From a virus: a DNA stretch of 28,886 nucleotides. The stretch covers positions 1 through 28,886 of IMG/VR virus record IMGVR_UViG_3300020392_000060. One strand, given 5' to 3'. A program made the position numbers and the translations under genes. Numbering within the stretch: position 1 is the stretch's first letter; each line of letters opens with the position of its first letter. Below, piece by piece: positions 4,497 through 28,638 of the stretch. The notes beneath the pieces are model-generated. The model had not been told where the DNA came from. It did no database searches and was given only the letters and a program-made list of their open reading frames with translations.

Positions 4497-6724
4497 TATC
4501 CTGTTCCTCTTATTTCATTATCATCACTTGGATAAATAAATCTGTTACCAAATCTGCTCTCGGCATATCTAAATAATTTTTTCTCAACTACCTTACCACT
4601 TGCAAGTCTAATTGTATAAACTGGTGTTATTGCGTCTATTCTATTAAGTGATGATAACATATCATTTAACTCTCTTAAATATAGGTTTGATGTATAGCTT
4701 ACATTTAAACTGCCATTTATATTTAAAGCTGTTGATCCCTCTCCGCCTAAAGGGATTATTTGTTTCATTGTAGGGAATCCTTCAGCAGCCACAATTTTAG
4801 CAGCTAAAAGATCTTGATGAGGAACATTTAGTCTTGATGAGCTTGTAACATTCAATGCAGTGATCATTCTAAAACTATAAAATCCATCTGGGGGAGTAAA
4901 TACACAATTATTAACTTGTGTAAGTCTTGGTTGTGGATTGTTTGACCCTGTCAATGCAAAATTTGGGAACTGTCTATGTCCAAAAGGAAAATCACTCGAT
5001 GAAGGTGTATAACTATGTGCAGTGTCTACTGTATTTGAATCTACCTTATAGAAAAAACCATCGCTTGGTGTTGATTGATCTTTTATAAAATACATAGATA
5101 AAAATGATCCAACAGGTAAATATTCATAAGTATCAGAGAAACTGCCATCTCTAATACCACAACCAAAACCAAATTGTACTTTATTGTAATATCTTAATAC
5201 ACTAAAATTATCTCTTGAAGTAGATGCATTTGAAAAGGTTAAATCTGATCTGTGACCATTTGGCACTAATCCTGTTGTATTTATACTTGTACTTTTAAGT
5301 ACAGAATCCATTGCCACCTTACCAACTGCAGATTTTGTAATATCATTTCCATTTACTAAATCGTTTAATGTTTGTAAAGATGTATTTGGATCATAGTAAA
5401 CATTAATTCCTCCTGCAAATCCAGTTGTAAATGGAACAAGTAATGGTTTTCCAGCTTGTAGATCTGCCGAGTTAAAACTTGGTTGCTTTTTAATTATTAC
5501 TGGAATGCTTTCCGTTGTAGATGATCCATCTGATGCTGTTACCTCAACATCAATAACATCTTCTTCTTCATCTTCTGTTATTGTTGGGGGTGAATACAAA
5601 ATCTCTGGAATTTCAGAACTTGGGTTTGCAATTGATGTGCTGCCTCTTGGTGTTGCTGATATTGCCACATCTGTTGCTGAATTATCTGGATTTAAAACTT
5701 GTGTTGGTATAAGCAGGTTATCTCCTTCCATTACCATAACAGATTTTGGCACAAGTATTAGTGGAATAGAAGATAAAATTGTTGGATTGATAAGACCTTG
5801 AGTAAATATCCTCTCATCAATCAGATTCGAATTTGATATAATATACCACCTACCTTGTGATTGAAATATTCTTGAGTTAAATGATTTTAATATCAATGAT
5901 AATAATTCTTTAGCATTAAAATTTGCAAATGAATCTGTCAAAAACCCATATTCATAAAATTCTATGTTGTGGAATATTGTTTGGTTATCTAAAAAATTAG
6001 ATCCACTTGTTCTAATATTATTAGCAATATAAATATTGAAATCAAGACCTGTAAGTTCTAATATTTTACGGATGTAATAGAATAAGCTATCAAAGTTACT
6101 TTGTGATGACATACTTATTTCATTACTTGAATCAAGTGTTATGGCACTATCAGGTGCAGTATATCCTTCTAACAGTCCAAGCTGATCACTTGCTACAATT
6201 TGTATAGGATATGGCTCTGTCATAATTAGCTGCTTAGACTGATCTACAACTAAAAAACCTTCCCAGTAAAATTCAAATCCTGTACCAAGAGGATCATCCC
6301 ATGTTATGTTTTTTGATTGAAACTCGGTTTCCTCTGTATCCCATTGTGGTGATCCACTAACATCACCTGTTGATATTTGTACTTTATATTCTCTTTCATC
6401 TGATTTATAAAAATCATCATAAAGTGTTGATATTGTCGCACCTCCTTGTGTAGACCAAACCTCATCTGTCAGTTCCCAATTTTTATCTACAAGTTCCCAA
6501 AACTCCCCACCACTATCACCAACAACCATTAAGTTAAGAGTACAAGTAGATCCAATTATAGGATTATAAAAATCATCTTTATTGTGCCATCTAATTACAA
6601 CTGGCTCATCTGTACCAATTAATGGGTATTTTACACCTGTATAATTTTTCTGAGATATTTGCAAAAGTCTTGGATTACCTTGGAGATCGGCAAATTCAAG
6701 TCTAAATTTTTCACCATAACTCAT
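4496..6724 (-). CDS. Large tail-tip/baseplate hub-like protein with an Ig-like insertion
   Basis: A 742-aa protein immediately after the tape measure (4-nt overlap), the usual position of the distal tail or hub proteins. The N-terminal ~300 residues include WEGFLVVDQSKQLIMTEPYP followed by an ASDQLGLLEGY segment, a pattern I associate with Bacteroidota phage tail proteins of the Dit/Tal region. Residues about 320-413 form an apparent Ig- or cadherin-like insertion: a proline/aspartate-rich linker, EDEEEDVIDVEVTASDG and a closing SIPVIIKK strand. The remaining ~330 residues are Ser/Asn-rich and beta-like (repeated SRLNV, NGSLNVSYTSNLYL), ending in a conserved-looking VYTIRLASGKVVEKKLFRY strand pair. 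The role in cell contact or tail-tip assembly is inferred from position. Confidence 0.72.
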   Translation of the reverse strand: MSYGEKFRLEFADLQGNPRLLQISQKNYTGVKYPLIGTDEPVVIRWHNKDDFYNPIIGSTCTLNLMVVGDSGGEFWELVDKNWELTDEVWSTQGGATISTLYDDFYKSDEREYKVQISTGDVSGSPQWDTEETEFQSKNITWDDPLGTGFEFYWEGFLVVDQSKQLIMTEPYPIQIVASDQLGLLEGYTAPDSAITLDSSNEISMSSQSNFDSLFYYIRKILELTGLDFNIYIANNIRTSGSNFLDNQTIFHNIEFYEYGFLTDSFANFNAKELLSLILKSFNSRIFQSQGRWYIISNSNLIDERIFTQGLINPTILSSIPLILVPKSVMVMEGDNLLIPTQVLNPDNSATDVAISATPRGSTSIANPSSEIPEILYSPPTITEDEEEDVIDVEVTASDGSSTTESIPVIIKKQPSFNSADLQAGKPLLVPFTTGFAGGINVYYDPNTSLQTLNDLVNGNDITKSAVGKVAMDSVLKSTSINTTGLVPNGHRSDLTFSNASTSRDNFSVLRYYNKVQFGFGCGIRDGSFSDTYEYLPVGSFLSMYFIKDQSTPSDGFFYKVDSNTVDTAHSYTPSSSDFPFGHRQFPNFALTGSNNPQPRLTQVNNCVFTPPDGFYSFRMITALNVTSSSRLNVPHQDLLAAKIVAAEGFPTMKQIIPLGGEGSTALNINGSLNVSYTSNLYLRELNDMLSSLNRIDAITPVYTIRLASGKVVEKKLFRYAESRFGNRFIYPSDDNEIRGTG

Positions 6725-8643
6725 AATAATCTATTTCTATTTCTGTTGGCATTCTCAAGTGCTAGTACAAGATCTTGACCATCAAGTCTGAAATTACCAT
6801 TAAGATTTACGTTTGAATTATTTAATGCATTAGTTGGTAGTGCATTACCTAAGTTTGGTGATGCTATATTTGGTGCGGCAGCTGCACCTGAAAAAAGACT
6901 TCCTAATCCAGTAAAACTTCCTATTAAATTTCCTAAAGAAAGTCTTGAATCTGATGCACCTCCAAAAAGTGGCAAAAGTAGTTGCAATGCTTGGGCGGCT
7001 AAAACTGCGGCAACTAAACGTTTTGCCAATTGTTTTAATGAGTTGATAACACCTTGAAAAAAATTACCACCTGAAGATAATGCTTCAACGCCGCTACTGA
7101 AAATGCCCATCAAATGGTTACCAACAGACAAAGCATTGTTTACCTTTTCATTCAAGATCGCAGCACGCATTTCATCTAATTTATTGACTGCTTCCATGCT
7201 TTTTTCCTGCTGAGTAAAAATTTTGTTATATTTCTCTGCTGCTGTCAAAACCTTTGGCCCAAATGCTTTCTCTAATCTACTTCTAAGTTCACCCAATACA
7301 GTGTTTGGCTTTTTAAGACTTTCCGTTACATCATCATTTGCTTTTGTTGCGTTTGGTAAAATTTTATTTGTCAATTCCTCATAAACATCTTTTAATACTT
7401 CAATAGTAGATTTTAAATCATTTGTTGCCCTCTCTGTTTCACCTTGTTTTTTGTTGTAATCAATCTGCTCTTGTGTTGTTTTTCTTATTGCAGCGGCTTG
7501 CTCATCATACTTTTTATTTATTTCATCAAAATTTGCTTTGAATTTATTTGTTATAATCTCATTAAATTTCTGTTTTAAAGTATTGAAATCAAGCACTAAT
7601 AAAGAGATTGCCTCTTTGATCCTTTCAACTGCATTTAAAAAAGTTTGTTTTACAAACGATGAAAAATCATTAAAGACATTTCTTAAATCATTGAATATCA
7701 AAACCAGTCCAACAACCGCTGCGGTAATCAAAGCAATTTTAAGTGCAAGCGGTGTAATTAATAATGTTAGAGATCCTATAACAACTAAAGCTGGGCCAAT
7801 CGCTGCTGCAAGCATACCAAACACCGCAACATTCTTTTTTGTTTGTGTATCTAATTCTGTAAATTTTCTGGCAAGTCCTGTAATTAATTTTAAAACTTTA
7901 GTAAGCAGGGGTAATAATAATTTACCAAAATCAGCAAGTGCAATATTTAAATTATCCTTTAAGGTTGAAAACTGACCTTGGAAGGTTTGAGAAAGTTTTT
8001 GCATACCATTCTCAAATCTACCTCCTTCTGATGTTGCTGTTTGGAATCCCTGTTTTAAAAGATCAAATGTTATAAGTCCTTCAGATGCTAACTCTCTTAA
8101 CTCTCCAGCATTTTTACCTGTAATCTCTCCAAGGATCTGGAAAATAGGAATACCATTATTCACAAATTGATTTAAGTCTTGTGTCATCACACGACCTGCT
8201 GCTGCCGATTGACCAAATGCAATGGCAACCCTTGATAAATCTGATCCTGCTACTGCTGAAACATCTCCTAATAGTTTAAGAGAATCAAAAGCATCATTCG
8301 CAGATAAACCAAAACCGATGAGTTGATTATTTACCGCAGCAAGATCTGCAAGTTGAAAAGGTGTCTGAGCTGAAAATTTAACAAGTTTTTCAAATGCTTT
8401 TGCACCTTGTGCTGCACCTCCTGTTAGAACTGATAAGGATGTTTGAAGTCTTTCAAAATCTGATGCTGCTTTTACCGCTTGACCTCCTGCTAAAAGAATT
8501 GGTGCAGTTAGTTTTAAACTCAGGTTTCTACCAACATTTTGGGCGCTCTTACCAAATGCATTTAATTTTTGCTGTGCAGTTGACAATGACTTGTTCAAAC
8601 CACTTGCATCACCAGCAAGTATGACTTTTAAAATGTTGCTCAT
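6721..8643 (-). CDS. Tail tape measure protein
   Basis: A 640-aa protein setting tail length and probably helping DNA passage. The N-terminus (about 1-230) is the recognisable phage tape-measure N-terminal domain: LAGDASGLNKSLSTAQQKLN, LLAGGQAVKAASDFERLQ, then FSAQTPFQLADL and LNQFVNNGIPIFQIL. Hydrophobic segments near 275-318 (VAVFGMLAAAIGPALVVIGS and following) look like membrane-interacting helices, followed by long charged helices (320-500) and a Gly/Ala/Leu-rich C-terminus (540-600). At the usual ~0.15 nm per residue this predicts a tail of roughly 95 nm. It starts 17 nt after the stop of the frameshift extension of the chaperone and is preceded by a TAAATTTG box. Confidence 0.95.
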   Translation of the reverse strand: MSNILKVILAGDASGLNKSLSTAQQKLNAFGKSAQNVGRNLSLKLTAPILLAGGQAVKAASDFERLQTSLSVLTGGAAQGAKAFEKLVKFSAQTPFQLADLAAVNNQLIGFGLSANDAFDSLKLLGDVSAVAGSDLSRVAIAFGQSAAAGRVMTQDLNQFVNNGIPIFQILGEITGKNAGELRELASEGLITFDLLKQGFQTATSEGGRFENGMQKLSQTFQGQFSTLKDNLNIALADFGKLLLPLLTKVLKLITGLARKFTELDTQTKKNVAVFGMLAAAIGPALVVIGSLTLLITPLALKIALITAAVVGLVLIFNDLRNVFNDFSSFVKQTFLNAVERIKEAISLLVLDFNTLKQKFNEIITNKFKANFDEINKKYDEQAAAIRKTTQEQIDYNKKQGETERATNDLKSTIEVLKDVYEELTNKILPNATKANDDVTESLKKPNTVLGELRSRLEKAFGPKVLTAAEKYNKIFTQQEKSMEAVNKLDEMRAAILNEKVNNALSVGNHLMGIFSSGVEALSSGGNFFQGVINSLKQLAKRLVAAVLAAQALQLLLPLFGGASDSRLSLGNLIGSFTGLGSLFSGAAAAPNIASPNLGNALPTNALNNSNVNLNGNFRLDGQDLVLALENANRNRNRLL

Positions 8644-8659: not shown

Positions 8660-9378
8660 TTAAAAAAGTTTTTTGCCTTTATTGTTTAAAGATTCTACCT
8701 TTTCAACAAATGCCTCAAATTGTTCTTTAGTTGATTTTATAGTGTTTTCAACCTTAATACTATCTTGTGGTAATTTAAATAATTCATGTGGCTTGATCAT
8801 ATCTTTTCTTTTAGAACAATTCACATTGTGGATCATTGTAGCTAAGTACCTAATTCTCTCCCACTCAAAGTTTTGTTTTATAGTATAAGATTCACCTAAT
8901 AAGAAATTCTCCTTCCAAGTGTTTAGCCAAAAGGTTGTTGGATCAATTCCAACTTGTCCGATAAAATAATCGATTAAGGTATTCCAGCTAATTTCTGCTG
9001 GCTCGTGATTGTTTTTTTTTCCTCTGTTGGATTTCTATCAATACCCATATTGAGTTGGTTTCCAAGGATTTTGGATTCCATTAAGGAGTTGGTAATGTCG
9101 GTTAATTTTTCAGCATCTACTTCTTCTAACCAATTTCCAACATCAAATACGTTGTAATCAATTTTGTTTTTGTTTTCCATATCAAAGGCATATAGACCAC
9201 AATAGACAATCTGTATGATCATCTTTATTGTTATGCCTTTTTCAAATGCTTCACCGAGTTTATCCAATGGCACATTTAATGCATCTGTGAATTCACTCCA
9301 AAAATTCATGGAGAAATGTAATGTACGTTTTTTACCTCCGATATCAAGATCGAGATAACCCCTTTTTTTATTGTGCAT
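8660..9378 (-). CDS. Tail assembly chaperone long form (G-T type), made by -1 frameshift
   Basis: The tail assembly chaperone frame (stop at 8974) is followed by an overlapping -1 frame that stays open to 8660. Shifting at the A9 run joins codon 122 (second Lys of EEKK) to an extension beginning NHEPAEISWNTLIDYFIGQV and ending NNKGKKLF, giving a protein of about 239 aa. The extension looks like the T-type domain: an early W, an L-x-L-x-P-like turn (GIDPTTFWLNTW) and a charged helical end. This copies the lambda G/GT strategy, in which a small fraction of ribosomes makes the long form needed to load the tail tube around the tape measure. It fills the otherwise gene-free 8660-8973 immediately upstream of the tape measure. 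Confidence 0.88.
8974..9378 (-). CDS. Tail assembly chaperone short form (G-type)
   Basis: A 134-aa protein read entirely in frame 0. The N-terminus (YLDLDIGGKKRTLHFSMNFW) with following helices (LGEAFEKGITIKMIIQIVYC, VFDVGNWLEEVDAEKLTDI) matches the pattern of small siphophage tail assembly chaperones encoded between the tube and tape-measure genes. Residues 119-122 (EEKK) sit on the slippery A9 run; the frame-0 tail TITSQQKLAGIP is unique to this short form. It starts 6 nt after the tail-tube stop, consistent with coupled expression. Confidence 0.88.
   Translation of the reverse strand: MHNKKRGYLDLDIGGKKRTLHFSMNFWSEFTDALNVPLDKLGEAFEKGITIKMIIQIVYCGLYAFDMENKNKIDYNVFDVGNWLEEVDAEKLTDITNSLMESKILGNQLNMGIDRNPTEEKKTITSQQKLAGIP
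9013..9019 (-). promoter_or_regulatory. A_AAA_AAA -1 ribosomal frameshift site
   Basis: The minus strand has nine consecutive A (9020-9012). In frame 0 the codons are GAA AAA AAA ACA, so positions 9019-9013 form A_AAA_AAA, a canonical X_XXY_YYZ -1 slippery heptamer with Lys codons. Slipping back one base gives AAC as the next codon and opens the frame to 8660. I did not identify a clear downstream stimulatory pseudoknot or upstream Shine-Dalgarno-like stimulator. Confidence 0.85.
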
Positions 9379-9384
9379 TATTTT

Positions 9385-9807
9385 TTAAGAGTTGTTAGCT
9401 TGTGTTATTGCACCAGTTGTTACTATTGTACCGCTAAAAGTAACAGCTGATTCCATATCCGCATTAATCTCTAAACTGCTTATAAAACCTTCACCTGATA
9501 ATACCGCATCACCGCTGACCGCTGTGCCAAAACTGTAATCAACTTTTGATCTATTAGATACCATCGTGAATATCTCATCGTGATTTAATGTATCGGTATA
9601 ATCTACTAAACCTTCAAAAGAAATCTCACCAGACCTTACACCACTTATTACCTCTTGGAATCCAGCACTATCTTTTGATGTAGATTCTGGTAAATCATGG
9701 GTGATAGTAAGTGTTGCTGATGTTGTATGTCCTAAAGTGACTGGTGAACTGCCATCAACTGCAAATTTTAAAAGTAGATTAGTTCCGTTGTAAACTGTAC
9801 TTGCCAT
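9385..9807 (-). CDS. Major tail tube protein (TP901-1/phi13 type)
   Basis: A 140-aa protein forming the tube of the tail. The sequence has the family layout: a variable N-terminus with GHTTSATLTITHDLPESTSK, the strongly typical D-x-x-GF-x-E-x-x-x-G-x-R-x-G-x-I-x-FEGLVDY core (residues 46-70), then SGEGFISSLEINADMESAV and TFSGTIVTTGAI. That order of beta strands is shared by tail tubes of long-tailed phages. It precedes the chaperone and tape measure as expected, but unusually it comes after the fibre and adhesin genes rather than directly after the tail terminator. Confidence 0.92.
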   Translation of the reverse strand: MASTVYNGTNLLLKFAVDGSSPVTLGHTTSATLTITHDLPESTSKDSAGFQEVISGVRSGEISFEGLVDYTDTLNHDEIFTMVSNRSKVDYSFGTAVSGDAVLSGEGFISSLEINADMESAVTFSGTIVTTGAITQANNS

Positions 9808-9877: not shown

Positions 9878-12868
9878 TTATTTAAATGCCATATATAAGT
9901 ATGTATCGCCATTAGAATTAGTTCCTAAACTTGTTGTATTTGCTACAATGAATCCGCTATCATTTACAGTTATATAAGCAGTAGAAACTGCACCTGTTTC
10001 TTGTGCATTACTATTGGCTCTTAACCAATTATTAAGTCTATCCTCTATTGTGTTTCTTCGATTGTCTAACATAACCCAATCACCTGTATCATCAACATTT
10101 TTTATCATTACAAAAGATGGTTTAAAACCTACATCTGAAACTGTAACTGTGCTATTTGTTCCTTCATAAGTACCAATTTTACTATATCCTGTAACTGAAT
10201 GCCAACAGTAGGCTATTGTTTCTAGCCCATTGTAATTTCTTACTTGTACATTAATATCATCGCCATTAGAACCAACGTGATTTGCGGTTGTACTTCCAAC
10301 GGAATCATTTGTATTTAATCTTAAAAAATTAGTTGTTGGACTGCTAAATATTGTACTATTTCCGCACACTATCCAACTATCTGTCCCGTTATCAAGACCT
10401 TTTAAGAAATATATTTCAGGTTCTGAATTTAATCCATGTTTTACTGTTTGACCACTACCGCTACCGCCTGTAAACTTTACTATACTAAACCCTGCATCTG
10501 TATTGGCTGATACTGATACATTTGTTACTCCTGTTCCTGTTCCTGCAACTGCCTCTTTACCTGCAAGCCAAGTCCACGCTACATAATTAGGTGATGATGA
10601 GCTACCATTTACAGCATCACTACTTCCTAAAAAGAAACCATTAGCATCAAATGATGTTAATTCATCTGTTGCATTACTTGCTGCTGTAGTTTGATTTGAT
10701 CTTATTCTATTTCCCGCACCTCTAACTGAATCATAAAGCATATGGTCTCTTGTACTTCCACCTGACCTCTTTTTAATCCAAACCAAACCACCATTTGTTT
10801 CTAAGTCCATTCCTACATTAGAAACATATTGAGCTGCACCACTCCCTTCATACAATACAGTCTTGAAGTTAGATGTATCTGTTTCAGGTTTTTCGTTGAA
10901 TAGTTTAAGTATGTTTTCTTCTGATAGAAATGAATTAAAAAATCTTAATTGGTCAATTTGTCCATCAAAATACAAACTTCCACTTGCTGAACCTATTACA
11001 TTATTACCTGAAACAGTAGGAAAATCTGTTGTATTAGTTGATGATGCTATTTCAACTCCATCTAACCATATTTTTGCGCCATCAGTTGAACTTTTTTGTA
11101 CAACTAAATGATACCATCTATTAACTTCCCACAATCCTGAAGCACTATCCAAATATGGGTCTTGTCCTGTAATGTGATGCAAATAACTTATTCTACCATC
11201 TGCACCTGTGCTTCCTGTAAAATTGCCATCATTAAAAGTGCTATTTAAACGAATGGCTTGTCTTTTTGTGTTATTTAAAGCAAGAATGAATTGGTTGTCC
11301 GCTTGACTATTAGCTTTAAACCACAAAGATGTAGTACAATTGTTTGAAGGTGTAGTAAAACTATTTATTGTTATCTCACTACTACTACCATTAAACACCG
11401 CAGCTTGACCATACTTGCCGAATCTGTATTCTATATCTGTTTCAGTACCATCGTTAGTACCTACCGAATCCTCTGCTGAATTGTCAAATTTGTAATACGC
11501 AAGGTTTGTAGTAGGATAATAATTATCAGTTGTAGTTGCAGTATGTACACAAGCGGTTTCTGCGTAAAGTGTGCTGACTTCTGTTGAATCTAACGCCTTA
11601 GAAAATATACGGATTTGGTCTAATGAGCCTGTAAATTGCCTATTAGAGCTTGTACTACATATTTCATTTATAGAACTATTAAACCCACTTGTTGTGTACG
11701 TATTACTTAAACTTCCATTTGTATATACTTTTAAAGTAGTACCATCTGATGTGAAAGCAATATGACTCCAAGCATCATTTGATATAGTAGCACTACTTCT
11801 TGCGGTTGTACCTTCGTAATATATTACCTTACTATTAGGTTTATCAAAAGTAATTGAGTTGGTATAAGATGTTCCGCCAACATCTCCAAATAATCTTCTT
11901 GCATAAGTAGCATTACCACTTGAATCAGGTTTAATCCAAAAAGAGTAAGTTTTTATACTGGAAATTGTAGAGGATAAAGTTATTTTACTACTACTTCCAT
12001 TAAACCTTGCACCTGTATTTATTTGTCCGCCTACTCCAAAATCAACATCAGTAGGTGTTCCATCATAATAACCACTTGCATCGCTTGCATCATAATCCAA
12101 AGAATATAAAGCTAAACCTGCACCTTCATTTAACAGATTGGTGTTAGATACAGTATCTGTTGTTTCAGAATAAAGTGTATAAGCATCGCTATCCGATACC
12201 GCTTTATTATAATACCTGTATTGGTCTAAGAGACCATCATATCCAACTGTACTAGTACCTCTTGTGTCAAGATTACCTAAAGTAATTGTTTCATCATTTT
12301 TTTGTCTTGCTAAACTTGATGCAGTAAATTCAGCTAAAGAACCGTCTATATAAATACTTGCACCGACACCATCACTCCAAGTCAGAACAACGTGATGCCA
12401 AGCATTAAGAGATACAGTTCCTGATACTTGGACATAGGCAGCATTACTTGTGTGTACTGTCCAATTAAGAGTTGTGCCATCACTAGACCAAAGATAATAT
12501 CCATAAAGACCGCTACCTCCACCATTCCAATAAGTCCCTAAGATAGCGTTATAACTGCCTGTGATTGAATGCTGATACATCCAAAAAGAATGGGTTAAGG
12601 CAGTGTCATCTGTGTTATATTCTGTGTCTATATGTTGAGTTGTTCCTGCAAAATCAGCAGAATATGAGCCAAATTTAGCAGTAGAAGAAAATGTAGCACC
12701 TGAATTTGTTGCTGAAGGTGTGCCTACATCATTAGTTACATCATTTTCAAATTGATAAAGTAATTTATTACTACTGTATGTGCTATCAGCACCAAATACC
12801 TGTACTGATTCAGTAAGACAAACTGCATCTGCTGCACCTGTACTAACAAATCTTCTACCTAAACTCAT
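9878..12868 (-). CDS. Tail adhesin with three LamG/concanavalin-like domains and a DUF7483-like C-terminus
   Basis: A 996-aa protein, the largest in the genome and a strong receptor-binding candidate. Three LamG-type (Laminin_G_3) domains are seen at about 35-236, 250-440 and 453-660, each ending in a GxLDQxRxYxKAL-like motif (LLDQYRYYNKAV, SLDQIRIFSKAL, QIDQLRFFNSFL) and carrying the mid-domain W-x-H-x-x-x-T/V signature (AWHHVVLTW, AWSHIAFTS, RWYHLVVQK). Residues 668-996 resemble the DUF7483 tail domain found in marine phages: GGLVWIKKRSGGSTRDHMLY, then NYVAWTWLAG and a terminal TYLYMAFK. It starts 2 nt after the chaperone-like gene. LamG domains usually bind glycans, which fits binding to a cell surface polysaccharide. 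The first ~30 residues may attach it to the tail. Confidence 0.88.
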   Translation of the reverse strand: MSLGRRFVSTGAADAVCLTESVQVFGADSTYSSNKLLYQFENDVTNDVGTPSATNSGATFSSTAKFGSYSADFAGTTQHIDTEYNTDDTALTHSFWMYQHSITGSYNAILGTYWNGGGSGLYGYYLWSSDGTTLNWTVHTSNAAYVQVSGTVSLNAWHHVVLTWSDGVGASIYIDGSLAEFTASSLARQKNDETITLGNLDTRGTSTVGYDGLLDQYRYYNKAVSDSDAYTLYSETTDTVSNTNLLNEGAGLALYSLDYDASDASGYYDGTPTDVDFGVGGQINTGARFNGSSSKITLSSTISSIKTYSFWIKPDSSGNATYARRLFGDVGGTSYTNSITFDKPNSKVIYYEGTTARSSATISNDAWSHIAFTSDGTTLKVYTNGSLSNTYTTSGFNSSINEICSTSSNRQFTGSLDQIRIFSKALDSTEVSTLYAETACVHTATTTDNYYPTTNLAYYKFDNSAEDSVGTNDGTETDIEYRFGKYGQAAVFNGSSSEITINSFTTPSNNCTTSLWFKANSQADNQFILALNNTKRQAIRLNSTFNDGNFTGSTGADGRISYLHHITGQDPYLDSASGLWEVNRWYHLVVQKSSTDGAKIWLDGVEIASSTNTTDFPTVSGNNVIGSASGSLYFDGQIDQLRFFNSFLSEENILKLFNEKPETDTSNFKTVLYEGSGAAQYVSNVGMDLETNGGLVWIKKRSGGSTRDHMLYDSVRGAGNRIRSNQTTAASNATDELTSFDANGFFLGSSDAVNGSSSSPNYVAWTWLAGKEAVAGTGTGVTNVSVSANTDAGFSIVKFTGGSGSGQTVKHGLNSEPEIYFLKGLDNGTDSWIVCGNSTIFSSPTTNFLRLNTNDSVGSTTANHVGSNGDDINVQVRNYNGLETIAYCWHSVTGYSKIGTYEGTNSTVTVSDVGFKPSFVMIKNVDDTGDWVMLDNRRNTIEDRLNNWLRANSNAQETGAVSTAYITVNDSGFIVANTTSLGTNSNGDTYLYMAFK

Positions 12869-20016: not shown

Positions 20017-20931
20017 TTACTCTTTTGGATAGACTGCAATGGCACATCTACAGTTGACAACATTAGCTGCACTTGCAGAAGGATCAGCTGGATTTGCCAT
20101 CAAATCACCCCCCACTTGAAACTTCTCATCTATGCCAACAATAGCACCATCGATGGCAACATGATTCTCTCTTGTTCTGCCATCACCGATAATTGATATC
20201 CATTCTTTGACAACGTTATTTTTACCATAGATATCGGTAGCAGATCTAATCGTTGCTTTGTTAGCAGCATTGGTTGCCTCCGTTCTTACAATCCTTTGTG
20301 CCTGATATCTTGATATCTTATTGAATCTTGTATTTAAAATCTTTGCCTTTTTTTCTGTTCCAGCCTTTTGGAAATCAGGATCAGCAAAAAGTTTTTTAAG
20401 TGTTTTTTGCAAGGTTTTCTTTGCAGTTCCCTGTACAAGTCCTTTCCTTTGATCATATACCTTTTTACCAAGTGCTGCAAATGTTTCACTCCAGACATCA
20501 TCGTATCCACTTACATCTTGTTGTTTTAAAATCATGCCCCTTATATTTTTACTGTACCACTTTGCAAATCTCAAACCTATATTTTGGTATATTGATACAT
20601 ATAGTTTTTCTATTTCTGCAAATTTAAAAATGTCAGGTTGTGGATTTGTGTCGTTATTGGTAAGTGCATATTCAATACCTTTTCGATATTGTTCACGATA
20701 ATACCTTCTTACTTTTATAACTTCAACGTTCTCCCCAATGTAGAGTTGTTTTCTAAAATCAACTTTCCAGCGATCACTTATTTGTTTGTTTTCTTTTCTA
20801 TCGTAAAGATCATAACAAACTGCAACTCTTTGATCATTATTTTCAAAATCAGCAATTACTTGGGGATGAATAGAGCATCTTTGTATGAAATCATTTTCAT
20901 CCTCATATCTCCTTGGCTTGGGTAATGGCAT
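20017..20931 (-). CDS. Minor head protein (Mu F / SPP1 gp7-like) with an N-terminal accessory module
   Basis: A 304-aa protein. The C-terminal ~100 residues are the Phage_Mu_F / SPP1 gp7 domain: RYQAQRIVRTEATNAANKAT, KEWISIIGDGRTRENHVAID, and a final ANVVNCRCAIAV, a well-conserved ending. The first ~45 residues form a separate module (PRRYEDENDFIQRC, then F-x-N-x-DQRVAVCYD with two Cys), a short pattern attached to the N-terminus of various phage head proteins. The middle is a long charged helical region. It begins one base into the stop of the portal gene, the standard position for this family, and probably sits at the portal vertex. Confidence 0.88.
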   Translation of the reverse strand: MPLPKPRRYEDENDFIQRCSIHPQVIADFENNDQRVAVCYDLYDRKENKQISDRWKVDFRKQLYIGENVEVIKVRRYYREQYRKGIEYALTNNDTNPQPDIFKFAEIEKLYVSIYQNIGLRFAKWYSKNIRGMILKQQDVSGYDDVWSETFAALGKKVYDQRKGLVQGTAKKTLQKTLKKLFADPDFQKAGTEKKAKILNTRFNKISRYQAQRIVRTEATNAANKATIRSATDIYGKNNVVKEWISIIGDGRTRENHVAIDGAIVGIDEKFQVGGDLMANPADPSASAANVVNCRCAIAVYPKE

Positions 20932-23219
20932 TAATCAAGTTTTTTGTTAGCATATCGTAACATTGCCTCACCTCCCCACATCAAATGGCTTGTGTAACCT
21001 TTATCTTTCCAAGGGGTATCTTTAAAGTCTGGATCAATTTTGTGATAACCACCTGCCATTGATCTTGTAAGGAAACTTCTTGTTCTAACTAAAATATCCA
21101 TCGATATAGGCTCACGCTTGGCAAGTTGATTCATTCTTGCAAGACCAACACTTGTGCCTCCGCTAACTTCATCTCTACCATATTTTTCAATCCAATCTCT
21201 AACCCTTCTTGCATTATTTGTTGCGGTCATAGGATAATCATCAAACATTTGCTTTTGGTTTTTTTTGGTAGATAATCTATGACCTTCAGGTAGTAGATCT
21301 GTATCGTAAGGTTTACGTTTGAATCTTCCGTTTCTAAGTGCATATAATAGACCGTTTACTCTACCCATTGCCCACTGTTCTTCACTTCTTACGTTTGGTC
21401 TTACTGATGATGGGTTTGTTCTATATGCACCGATTCCCCTAACGTAAGATCTGGCAAGCATTGAATAAGTTGCTCTTTTAGAAGGATTATCACCCACATC
21501 TTCGTTGTGATCTTTAACCTTATTTCGTAGTGCTGTTTCTTGCCTACCTGTAATTTCAGGTGTTTTCTTTCTCAGTATATCATCCATTGAAACAGATTCT
21601 GTATCCTCATCATCATCATAATAAGAATCAGCATCTATCATACCATAAAATTCATCCAGCTTACCTTGTTGTGCAGCTACATATTCATCATGCGTTTCAA
21701 ATGGCATAAATATTTCATTGCCATCATAAGTGTGAGTATGGAATCCAACACCTTCACCATTCCAACCCATATCTCTTGCTCTATCTTCTGCTTCTTCTCT
21801 TGTAGTATAGGCATCTAAAAATGCCATAATCTTATCTTTTGTTATAGACTTTTCGTCTACTTCAATCGGTTGAGGTGTCATATCTGGCATATCGCTATCT
21901 CCTACAGGCAAAAGATTGGCTGGAAAATAATAATCATCTAAAGCATCATTATCTTCATCTACACCATAACCTGATGCAACCCTTTTCTCATTAGGTGTCA
22001 GCCACCAAGATTGTGAAAGATTGGTTACTATCTTATCCGTTTCCTCTTGTAGTTCAGGAATAACTGTAAAATCAAAATCTAAGAATAAATTGTCACCAAA
22101 TTTAGGAACTAACCAACGATTCAATTCATCCCTTACTTTTATAAGTTCAGGGATTACCGCATTGGTGTACATCATTTTGCGTGCCTCTTTTATATTGTTA
22201 TATGTTGCAGATTCAACATTATTTAAAAGTATTGCTGGCACATTATAGATGTTACACAAGTCTTTAATGGATGCATTGTATTGTTCAATCAAAGATAAAT
22301 CTGATGCAGACATACCAAAATTCACCCATGATAATTTTTTTGGTGTAATGATTACATCACCTGCATTGTTTGATCCTTGATATTGTTGTCTAAATTTTTC
22401 CTTGAGTTGTCTTGCTTGAACTTCATTTAAATCACCTTCCTCACTCATTAAAACACCTCTTGCAGTTTGGTTTTGCAAGTATTTAACACCAGTAGTCAGT
22501 GCCTCATTATTGGCATCCAAAGATCTCAAACCTGCCCTAAGCGGTGACATACCATATAAATGTGATGCAGTACCATCAAAATTTGGATTGAAATCACCTA
22601 TGTGCAAAACGTTCTCCGATGGTATTTTAATTGATCCGTTGTATTGTAGAGTATAGTAATCAACAGGTTTCATAAATCCACCAGAGTTTATCTCAACAGA
22701 TTGTGATGGTAATACATATAACTCTGTAAATTTACTTGCGTTTGCACCTGTATTTGGTGATATACCATAAATATATCTGTTACCTGTTAGCTTACCAAAA
22801 GCAATTACCTCTGATATAAATTGAGCAAAGGATTGTGCAGGATTTGGTCTTTTTAATATATCATTAAGATCACTATTATCAATCTCTACAAGTGCATCTT
22901 TTTGTAGTATGTTAGATTTTAGTATTGTGTTACTATCAAAACCTGATGATGTTATTGCTTTATATTTTTTTAAACTGTTTTCGTTTTTAACCTCATAAAT
23001 TATAAAGGGAACAGTTGTGGCTGCTTTTGTAATTAAATTAATTATACTATAAACCGTTGAGTTAAATCTATAACCTTTATTAACATAAGTATCATCATTA
23101 TCTTGAGATGATATTAATGTGTTGCCTAAAAAGTTATATATCGCCCTGTTAAAGGATTGATTAGTTTGTTGATTTTTCGTTGTGAATATAGATCTAAATC
23201 TATCGATTAAGGTTGCCAT
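20931..23219 (-). CDS. Portal protein with three extra C-terminal modules
   Basis: A 762-aa protein, much longer than a typical HK97-like portal (about 400-450 aa). Residues 1-440 are a portal: FNSTVYSIINLITKAATTVP, FAQFISEVIAFGKLTGNRYI, VLHIGDFNPNFDG, MSPLRAG and EQYNASIKDLCNIYNVPAIL. Three added modules then follow: (A) about 468-515, AEDRARDMGWNGEGVGFHTH with MPFETHDEYV; (B) about 552-652, a YSMLARSYVRGIGAYRTNPS module continuing SVRPNVRSEEQWAMGRVNGL and ending DLLPEGHRLS; (C) about 660-762, ARRVRDWIEKYGRDEVSGGT to SHLMWGGEAMLRYA. An acidic linker (DSYYDDDEDTESVSMDD) separates A and B. Modules like these recur on other phage proteins. The start ATG at 23219 follows a TATTTTTG box. Confidence 0.9.
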   Translation of the reverse strand: MATLIDRFRSIFTTKNQQTNQSFNRAIYNFLGNTLISSQDNDDTYVNKGYRFNSTVYSIINLITKAATTVPFIIYEVKNENSLKKYKAITSSGFDSNTILKSNILQKDALVEIDNSDLNDILKRPNPAQSFAQFISEVIAFGKLTGNRYIYGISPNTGANASKFTELYVLPSQSVEINSGGFMKPVDYYTLQYNGSIKIPSENVLHIGDFNPNFDGTASHLYGMSPLRAGLRSLDANNEALTTGVKYLQNQTARGVLMSEEGDLNEVQARQLKEKFRQQYQGSNNAGDVIITPKKLSWVNFGMSASDLSLIEQYNASIKDLCNIYNVPAILLNNVESATYNNIKEARKMMYTNAVIPELIKVRDELNRWLVPKFGDNLFLDFDFTVIPELQEETDKIVTNLSQSWWLTPNEKRVASGYGVDEDNDALDDYYFPANLLPVGDSDMPDMTPQPIEVDEKSITKDKIMAFLDAYTTREEAEDRARDMGWNGEGVGFHTHTYDGNEIFMPFETHDEYVAAQQGKLDEFYGMIDADSYYDDDEDTESVSMDDILRKKTPEITGRQETALRNKVKDHNEDVGDNPSKRATYSMLARSYVRGIGAYRTNPSSVRPNVRSEEQWAMGRVNGLLYALRNGRFKRKPYDTDLLPEGHRLSTKKNQKQMFDDYPMTATNNARRVRDWIEKYGRDEVSGGTSVGLARMNQLAKREPISMDILVRTRSFLTRSMAGGYHKIDPDFKDTPWKDKGYTSHLMWGGEAMLRYANKKLD

Positions 23220-26270: not shown

Positions 26271-27959
26271 TTAAAAAGGTACATCATCATTTAAAGCGGT
26301 AAACCTTTGTTTGTTAGGATCAATTGATCTATATACACCACCACATTTAAAATCTGGTGCAGTTGTAAACATACCTAATTTACCATTTTCTTTTCTTTTT
26401 ACTTTTTGTATGTATATTTTAACTGCATCACTATCAAACTCAGTTCTCTCTCCAATAGATCTATAAACAGTCAAACAATTAAAAGATTTATTGAAAAAAT
26501 CAGATGATCCGCTAATATCATAAGGGGTTGGTACTTTATAAATATTATTTTCAACTTCCATTTTTCTTGGATGTGCCACTAAAAATAAATGTGTATTAGT
26601 TTGTTGGCAAAATTGAGTTATGTATGATAACATTGTACCGATATATTGATAATCTCTTTGTGCGGTGTGGTCAAGCATATTCCAAGGATCAATCACACAT
26701 AAGTTTATTCCATGCCTAAAAACGAGTTGTTTAAAATTATCAAGTATGCCTTTTAGTGTTAAATTTTCAATATCTATTTTAATAAAAAAGAAATGATCTT
26801 CAATGAAAGATTTTGAACTATTAAGATCTTCTGTTGTACAATATTTTTCATTAATCTTATTTGCCAAACGTTTTATATGACCTTCATAAGGGAAAGATTC
26901 AGGTGCAAAAAACCCTGTTTTAAAACCTTTTGTTAGTGCCATATTTACACATACTTGATCAACAAAATCAGATTTACCACTATTAGGTACACCGCAAACG
27001 GTACTCCATTCTCCCATTTGGATTTTAAAAAATTCATCAGAATTGTTTATGCCTAATGAATAATTTTCAACACCATTTTCATTTAAATTAATTACATCTT
27101 CCCATATCTCATCAATATTAAGAATGCCTTCCAAGGGAAAGTCTTTTTTACTTTTTAACATAGTTCTCAACACTTCTGCACCTTCTGTTGATAGAATCTC
27201 ATTGGCATCTTTATACTTATCAAAATCAACATATTGACATTTTTCTTTTCCAAACCTTCTTGCAAGTTCATGCCTTAGAGAAAGTCCAGCTTTATCATTA
27301 TCTGTACATAAAATAATTTTATTGACATCTGTAAAAAACTCCCAGCTATTATCCAAATATTCAAGTTTTTGGTTGCCTTGAGATGCACCGTTTGGAACTG
27401 ATATAACATTATAAATGCCACATTCATGTAATGATAAGGCATCCATCTCTCCCTCTACAATATAAATCTCATCATTCTTTAGACAATTATCTATGCCATA
27501 AAATGTAAGTTCAGCATTGCTAACCATCTTAAAATTCTTCTCAGCATCTCTATATTTTATATTAACAACTTTGCCATGTTTGTAATATTTAAAATTTATA
27601 GATTTTCTTTTTTTTTGAATCTTTTGAAAATACTCATCAGATTCAGATATATCCCAATCTTTAAGTGTTTTCTTTGATATGCCTCTTTTGGAAAAATAAG
27701 ATAAAGTTCTACTTGATAGATTAATTGATTTATCTACAGGCAAAACAAATTCTTTTTTTTGTTTTAGGTTGGCATTACCTGACCATCCGCAGTTATGGCA
27801 GTTGAAAAAACCTTTTTCAAGATTAACGCTTAAACAAGGATCTTTCTTATTTTTTCTATTATGACTGCATTTTGGGCAGGTAGTTTTTTGTTGCAGATTG
27901 TTTGTTTTAAGAGTAATGCCTAAATCATAAAGATTTTCTCTTATTTGGGTATTTATCAA
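26271..27959 (-). CDS. TOPRIM primase-helicase (T7 gp4-like)
   Basis: A 562-aa fused primase and replicative helicase. An N-terminal zinc finger is given by CPKC (Cys28, Cys31) and CHNC (Cys54, Cys57). The TOPRIM part has IYIVEGEMDA (Glu169) and CTDNDKAG (Asp220, Asp222). The DnaB/RecA-like helicase has Walker A GVPNSGKS (323-330) and Walker B LCVID (420-424). The C-terminus ends in LNDDVPF, like an SSB acidic tip. No ATG lies in this frame before a stop; TTG at 27959 is the start, overlapping the upstream gene by 35 nt. With no DNA polymerase found, it would load onto host polymerase at the fork. Confidence 0.93.
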   Translation of the reverse strand: MINTQIRENLYDLGITLKTNNLQQKTTCPKCSHNRKNKKDPCLSVNLEKGFFNCHNCGWSGNANLKQKKEFVLPVDKSINLSSRTLSYFSKRGISKKTLKDWDISESDEYFQKIQKKRKSINFKYYKHGKVVNIKYRDAEKNFKMVSNAELTFYGIDNCLKNDEIYIVEGEMDALSLHECGIYNVISVPNGASQGNQKLEYLDNSWEFFTDVNKIILCTDNDKAGLSLRHELARRFGKEKCQYVDFDKYKDANEILSTEGAEVLRTMLKSKKDFPLEGILNIDEIWEDVINLNENGVENYSLGINNSDEFFKIQMGEWSTVCGVPNSGKSDFVDQVCVNMALTKGFKTGFFAPESFPYEGHIKRLANKINEKYCTTEDLNSSKSFIEDHFFFIKIDIENLTLKGILDNFKQLVFRHGINLCVIDPWNMLDHTAQRDYQYIGTMLSYITQFCQQTNTHLFLVAHPRKMEVENNIYKVPTPYDISGSSDFFNKSFNCLTVYRSIGERTEFDSDAVKIYIQKVKRKENGKLGMFTTAPDFKCGGVYRSIDPNKQRFTALNDDVPF

Positions 27960-28638
27960 AATGTTTGTTTTTTAAATGGTTGGCAAAAATACTATCGAAA
28001 TAATCAATGTATTTTATTTTGTCTTTGTTTGTTCTCCTTAGTTTTAAAATAGTGTTGCAGTTTTTATTCCAAAAATCATCCTTGGAAACTTTATCCAAAA
28101 TAATATAAACTTTTCTGGGATGATAATCATCTAACCTCCACAAGTCATCAATGGCTTTTACCCACTCTTTTTTTTGCCTTTTAGTCTTTGGTAAAAATTT
28201 ATTTTGAAAAATTTTTTCAAGCGATAAAAAAAGTCCTTGCACTTCCTTTGGATAGTCTTTAAAATTGATTTTAATTTTTTCATACTTATTATTATTTATA
28301 TTATTATTATTATTATTATATATATATACCTTATCATTTTTGTATATACCCCTATCATCATTTTTGTGGATAGTATCCTTAATTTTGATGATACGTTTTT
28401 TTACTTGTTTTGTCTGCTTATCAACGATTATTTTTGTTTCAATAAAATTATTTTTTTTTAATTGATTTATTACTCTTGATGCTGATTGTTTTGATACTTT
28501 AAATCTATCGGCAAAATAATTATTATCAAACTCACAAGATCCGTTTTTTTTTATCTGAAATAAAATTTCATAATAAAAGATCTTTGCCGTTGATGAAATA
28601 CTATCGCTATACCTAACATCATTAGGTAGTAAAATCAT
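27925..28638 (-). CDS. Replication initiator/organizer-like protein (winged helix, DnaD-like C-terminus)
   Basis: A 237-aa protein. Residues about 12-72 form a winged-helix domain (STAKIFYYEILFQIK, then DRFKVSKQSASRVINQLKKN, NFIETKIIV), as in phage replisome organizers (lambda O and DnaD/RepA-like). An Asn-rich low-complexity spacer (YNNNNNNINNN) at about 106-117 joins it to a C-terminal helical domain (KRQKKEWVKAIDDLWRLDDY). It directly precedes the primase-helicase, the usual position of an initiator/loader. The spacer corresponds to an AT-rich run and adjacent direct repeats in the DNA, a possible origin. Family assignment is by fold and context; no sequence-specific motif was fixed. Confidence 0.72.
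   Translation of the reverse strand: MILLPNDVRYSDSISSTAKIFYYEILFQIKKNGSCEFDNNYFADRFKVSKQSASRVINQLKKNNFIETKIIVDKQTKQVKKRIIKIKDTIHKNDDRGIYKNDKVYIYNNNNNNINNNKYEKIKINFKDYPKEVQGLFLSLEKIFQNKFLPKTKRQKKEWVKAIDDLWRLDDYHPRKVYIILDKVSKDDFWNKNCNTILKLRRTNKDKIKYIDYFDSIFANHLKNKHFDKYPNKRKSL
28275..28373. other. Candidate replication origin inside the initiator gene
   Basis: Bases 28280-28327 are almost pure A/T (repeated att, then tatatata), a likely unwinding element. Right beside it are two 11-bp direct repeats, ATCATTTTTGT at 28333-28343 and 28357-28367 (24 bp apart), and TGTGGATAG at 28365-28373, which on the minus strand is CTATCCACA, 8 of 9 to the DnaA box TTATCCACA. The arrangement (AT-rich run plus repeats inside the initiator gene) is like the lambda origin inside gene O. 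Because 8/9 DnaA-box matches occur elsewhere in this genome, the box alone is weak evidence. Confidence 0.45.

Follow-up and report, generated by a model that had tools for sequence, protein, structure and literature searches.

The window, by which we mean the whole 28,886-nucleotide stretch of viral DNA analyzed here, carries a previously undescribed member of the lambda-type G/GT class: a short, putative tail assembly chaperone (N) followed by a second half (T) in the overlapping -1 frame. We are nearly certain that the two halves are fused in the window by -1 recoding. Conservation of this -1 frameshift in the tail assembly genes of dsDNA phages was described by Xu, Hendrix and Duda 2004 (reviewed in PMC5009743). 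What is added here is that two alternative designs for the shift occur within one family, one of them with a covarying RNA stem. The features of the locus are the following.

9385..9807, minus strand: major tail (tube) protein (PF06199, E 2e-12)
8974..9378, minus strand: zero-frame ORF of 134 aa, putative short chaperone (gpG-like N half)
9012..9020, minus strand: A9 run, from the sequence
9013..9019, minus strand: slippery heptamer A_AAA_AAA, in phase with the zero frame, from the sequence
8984..9001, minus strand: local hairpin CCAGC-8-GCUGG, candidate stimulator 11 nt past the heptamer
8660..9034, minus strand: -1 frame ORF; T half read from 9013, 117 aa, stop at 8662-8660
6721..8643, minus strand: tape measure protein, 640 aa (PF20155, E 1e-30)

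An earlier note on this DNA had proposed a chaperone frame ending at 8974 with a -1 frame open to 8660, and these coordinates are exact to the base; the codon phase likewise bears out its placing of an in-phase A_AAA_AAA at 9019-9013 within A9. The zero-frame codons across the run are GAG GAA AAA AAA ACA, and the 134-aa zero-frame product has the C-terminal end EEKKTITSQQKLAGIP. The -1 frame has an upstream stop at 9037, is open from 9034 and runs for 117 codons from the shift point to its stop, giving an N-T fusion of 122 + 117 = 239 aa. The window contains seven A9 runs where shuffles lead one to expect 7.7, which is not significant. Since the A9 count is thus about what chance gives, comparison with relatives decides the significance of the site.

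We propose that most translation would yield the 134-aa N (gpG-like) protein, while a minority of ribosomes would slip one base back at A_AAA_AAA and continue in the -1 frame to make the 239-aa N-T (gpGT-like) fusion. If the pair works as in lambda, N would coat the tape measure protein and T would recruit tail tube subunits. Taken as a whole, with a ribosomal slip, N plus N-T fusion and lambda-like roles, this explanation is the one we consider probable.

The gene order is tail tube, N, T, tape measure, with the two overlapping frames lying between tube and tape measure genes, and terminase, portal and major capsid genes belong to the same head-tail block. N hits phrog_2115 'tail protein' at E 2e-7 and T hits phrog_16333, a family with no assigned function, at E 2e-6; every aligned relative matches the respective family too, 32 for N and 30 for T. 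A structure predicted for N (mean pLDDT 79) resembles viral proteins in BFVD at TM of about 0.6-0.7 and E down to 4e-6, several of them named tail assembly chaperone; by this predicted fold, N appears to be a relative of tail assembly chaperones. No PDB match to the N half was found by sequence or fold. The chaperone identity put forward in the earlier note is favored by phrog_2115 and the fold matches, but not by the named Pfam and NCBIfam chaperone families, to which there is no sequence similarity above cut-off, a difference from lambda-type chaperones. A chaperone function is suggested by fold, position and analogy.

Viral contigs were scanned six times, using as queries the T half of the window and five T halves from separate branches. 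Loci holding both halves numbered 384, with some of them retrieved repeatedly. Together with the window, and leaving aside twelve loci that all carry GGGAAAG, these comprise 148 distinct 150-nt junctions, or 85 nonredundant sequences at a 93% cut-off. The T half lies in the -1 frame at every one of the 384 loci, and every junction has an in-phase X_XXY_YYZ. By comparison, strong in-phase heptamers elsewhere in the same N frames number 8 in 10,236 codons. GGGAAAG is the commonest junction heptamer, A_AAA_AAA comes next, and AAAAAAG and GGGAAAC are rare; one locus scored as AAAAAAG nevertheless has GGGAAAA at the aligned point. The terminase is 56-69% identical to that of the window in 8 of 10 sampled contigs, indicating a coherent phage group.

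Conservation of the A-run is less uniform. Relatives of the A class keep 9-10 As, but most relatives, more than half of the 384 loci, have GGGAAAG without a long A-run. The earlier note had counted relatives without the run as evidence against recoding, and such relatives do exist in the literal sense, yet another -1 heptamer takes the place of the run at the homologous point. This replacement strengthens the case for recoding.

Direct tblastn of either half against INPHARED phages found no relatives, and the T query had no match in GTDB genomes. An N profile recovered three MAG contigs from GTDB that hold relatives of this phage group, labeled Gammaproteobacteria, Woesearchaeota and Rhodobiaceae; because these labels conflict, the contigs are probably misbinned phage and give no host information. 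The record PP511318 (Dulem virus 31) is classed as Microviridae, yet its genome is 35.8 kb long and encodes a tail sheath, a tail tube and a tape measure, so that its taxonomy line looks wrong.

In the GGGAAAG relatives, a helix of 6-7 bp begins 5-6 nt after the heptamer, with its 3' arm about 40 nt further on, within the conserved GQVGI codons. The outer helix undergoes compensatory changes across 28 ungapped sequences (GCCGAC/GTCGGC, GCCAAC/GTTGGC, GCCAGC/GCTGGC and GCCGAT/ATCGGC). Its covariation score is 0.179 versus 0.106 in shuffles, with 0 of 500 shuffles as high and each slid register far worse, and a second GGGAAAG subgroup of five shows the same covariation in its own register. Tested against shuffles restricted to synonymous codons, which leave the protein unchanged, at a threshold of p<0.05, the helix is found at 56 of 59 GGGAAAG junctions (mean z -3.84), whereas it is found at none of the 22 A-run junctions, including the window (mean z -0.34). 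The 2x2 contrast between stem and heptamer class is extreme, with a p-value that is descriptive only because the sequences are related. An A-run locus (L059) falls with good support inside the GGGAAAG clade on the tree and is without the stem, which points to at least one joint change of motif and stem. The window sits on a long branch of uncertain placement. The presence of a stem is in itself no novelty, since a survey of E. coli genes predicted hairpins in three of five phage clusters with conserved heptamers (PMC4066793).

The long-range downstream helix is absent in the window (p 0.51). The local hairpin CCAGC/GCUGG has a z of -1.85 against dinucleotide shuffles; we rejected it as a stimulator, as folding of the region does not exceed that of protein-preserving synonymous shuffles (p 0.185). 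An Rfam search gave no convincing match, and no tRNAs were found in the window.

The A-run is 9-10 As long at each of the 22 nonredundant A-class junctions. Seven of these As are all that tandem ribosomal slippage uses. Of 46 other in-phase A7 sites in coding sequence, 33 are exactly 7 long and 2 reach 9. The codons flanking the long runs differ by branch (GAA AAA AAA ACN; ACA AAA AAA AAG; TCA AAA AAA AAA; GAA AAA AAA AAT), and for this reason shared descent alone explains the long runs poorly. Runs of 9 As are efficient slippage sites for bacterial RNA polymerase, and dnaX relies on the ribosome to slip in E. coli but on the polymerase, at A9, in Thermus (PMC5009743, PMC3711429). A conserved junction run of at least about 9 As, the criterion of the Thermus dnaX type, is present at all 22 A-class junctions.

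These observations bear on the machine that slips. RNA polymerase slipping at A9 would leave some mRNAs an A longer, or two As shorter, and their normal translation would give the same fusion. Such a route would account for runs of 9-10 As where seven suffice, for the variety of codons that flank them from branch to branch, and for the missing stem, conserved at 0 of 22 A-class junctions and lacking in L059 despite its nesting in the GGGAAAG clade; run length and missing stem also weigh against the ribosome in the window. The alternation known from dnaX is a precedent, and Cellulophaga phages phi10:1 and phi39:1, which have A8 and a second half in the other shifted frame, also favor polymerase slippage. 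Any run of 9, however, also holds an in-phase A_AAA_AAA, so that sequence cannot separate ribosome from polymerase. In E. coli reporters of another gene, frameshifting rose from 10% at 7 As to 40% at 9 and 63% at 11, in experiments that did not separate the two mechanisms (PMC3711429). The tail chaperone cases described in the literature consulted are ribosomal. No tail chaperone pair made by transcriptional slippage came up in our literature search, nor do we know of one shown to be made in this way. Two further A9 runs with in-phase A_AAA_AAA lie at 28544-28552 and 28451-28459 (minus strand) of the window, within one 237-aa ORF (27925-28638). This also speaks against the polymerase, in that A9 slippage would at least be tolerated; if A9 slips efficiently, that ORF should be affected too. 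Weighing both sides, we regard polymerase slippage as the main source of the fusion in the window as unlikely, though a serious contender. A family that alternates between a ribosomal route (GGGAAAG with stem) and a polymerase route (A9-10, no stem), with the window on the polymerase side, is a tentative possibility.

GGGAAAG followed by a covarying downstream stem is a signature of ribosomal slippage. As the homologous site of the GGGAAAG relatives bears these ribosomal marks, and the tail chaperone cases in the literature consulted are ribosomal, the ribosome is rather likely to be the main slipping machine in the window. What can be read off the sequences is the frame, the phase, their conservation, the gene order, the alternative heptamers in relatives and, for one class, the covarying stem. 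When the earlier note spoke of a canonical -1 frameshift, it was right that a G/GT-type chaperone would be produced by -1 recoding at this exact site; 'canonical' in the sense of ribosomal slippage goes further than the data, since an A-run class of 9-10 As without a conserved downstream stimulator also fits RNA-polymerase slippage.

The remaining alternatives do without recoding. T could be a separate protein, made by re-initiation or from its own start with no fusion, as might be supposed from the two overlapping frames and from the annotation of such a pair as two hypothetical genes in Bacteroides phage F4. Yet close to the junction the T frame lacks an ATG throughout the 85 nonredundant sequences, and in 73 it lacks GTG and TTG as well; separate initiation would also leave the in-phase heptamer at every junction unexplained, and we consider it very improbable. 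That the A-run was misread or misassembled, or that the gene has decayed, with one continuous frame in reality, can be dismissed: long A-runs are error-prone and A9 is about as frequent in the window as chance predicts, but the 384 loci come from many metagenomes, all are in -1 with an in-phase heptamer and none in one frame, and more than half have GGGAAAG instead of a long A-run.

Comparison with known systems places the window in the lambda G/GT class. It shares with lambda a short protein and its -1 fusion, the position between tail tube and tape measure, and an in-phase X_XXY_YYZ, so that the G/GT design claimed for it holds in the exact site, in the neighbors and in the -1 frame of every relative. 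The GGGAAAG relatives even share lambda's own heptamer, G_GGA_AAG. Unlike lambda, the window slips at A_AAA_AAA within A9, and its GGGAAAG relatives carry a covarying long-range stem. With dnaX the family shares the presence of two designs, heptamer plus stimulator or long A-run without stem; here, however, slippage would lengthen the product into a fusion where dnaX yields a truncated subunit, and for the A-run class either mechanism is a proposal. The family thus offers a natural experiment in which the same frameshift is reached through two interchangeable designs, covarying stem or long A-run, with which the identity of the slipping machine can be tested directly.

A host in the Bacteroidota is likely, as Shine-Dalgarno-like motifs are scarce (1 of 29 window genes, versus 13.7% of all positions) and among isolates the best matches to terminase and tape measure belong to Bacteroides and Cellulophaga phages, with identities of 37% and 32%. 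The results confirm the G/GT design in an uncultivated phage group that probably infects Bacteroidota. A literature search that covered a minority of subscription journals found no paper on a tail chaperone frameshift in a Bacteroidota phage.

The analysis also directs attention to an isolate, Bacteroides phage F4 (MT806185, 2681-3333), in which a hypothetical ORF and a second one overlapping it in -1 lie between the genes for tail tube and tape measure. As in the window, A_AAA_AAA lies in phase within an A9 run at the same place. Genes 00039/00038 of this phage, annotated as two hypothetical proteins, are probably a G/GT pair resembling N and T in arrangement; they differ from those of the window in that the T similarity is weak (30%, E 0.04) and the N half has no tblastn match. 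In the Cellulophaga phages phi10:1 (NC_021802, near 3346) and phi39:1 (NC_021804, near 2600), a tail chaperone-like pair is joined at an A8 run in the corresponding place, with its second half in +1/-2 and not -1; the first half of the phi10:1 pair is unannotated.

Two other genes of the window's structural block deserve mention. Before the tail tube gene lies an ORF of 996 aa (9878-12868, minus strand) with repeated laminin-G/concanavalin-like stretches by eye, possibly a receptor-binding or adhesion protein. The portal protein (20931-23219, minus strand, 762 aa) matches a separate family, phrog_2859, over its C-terminal residues 663-757 (E 2.5e-6), suggesting that the portal may be a fused protein.
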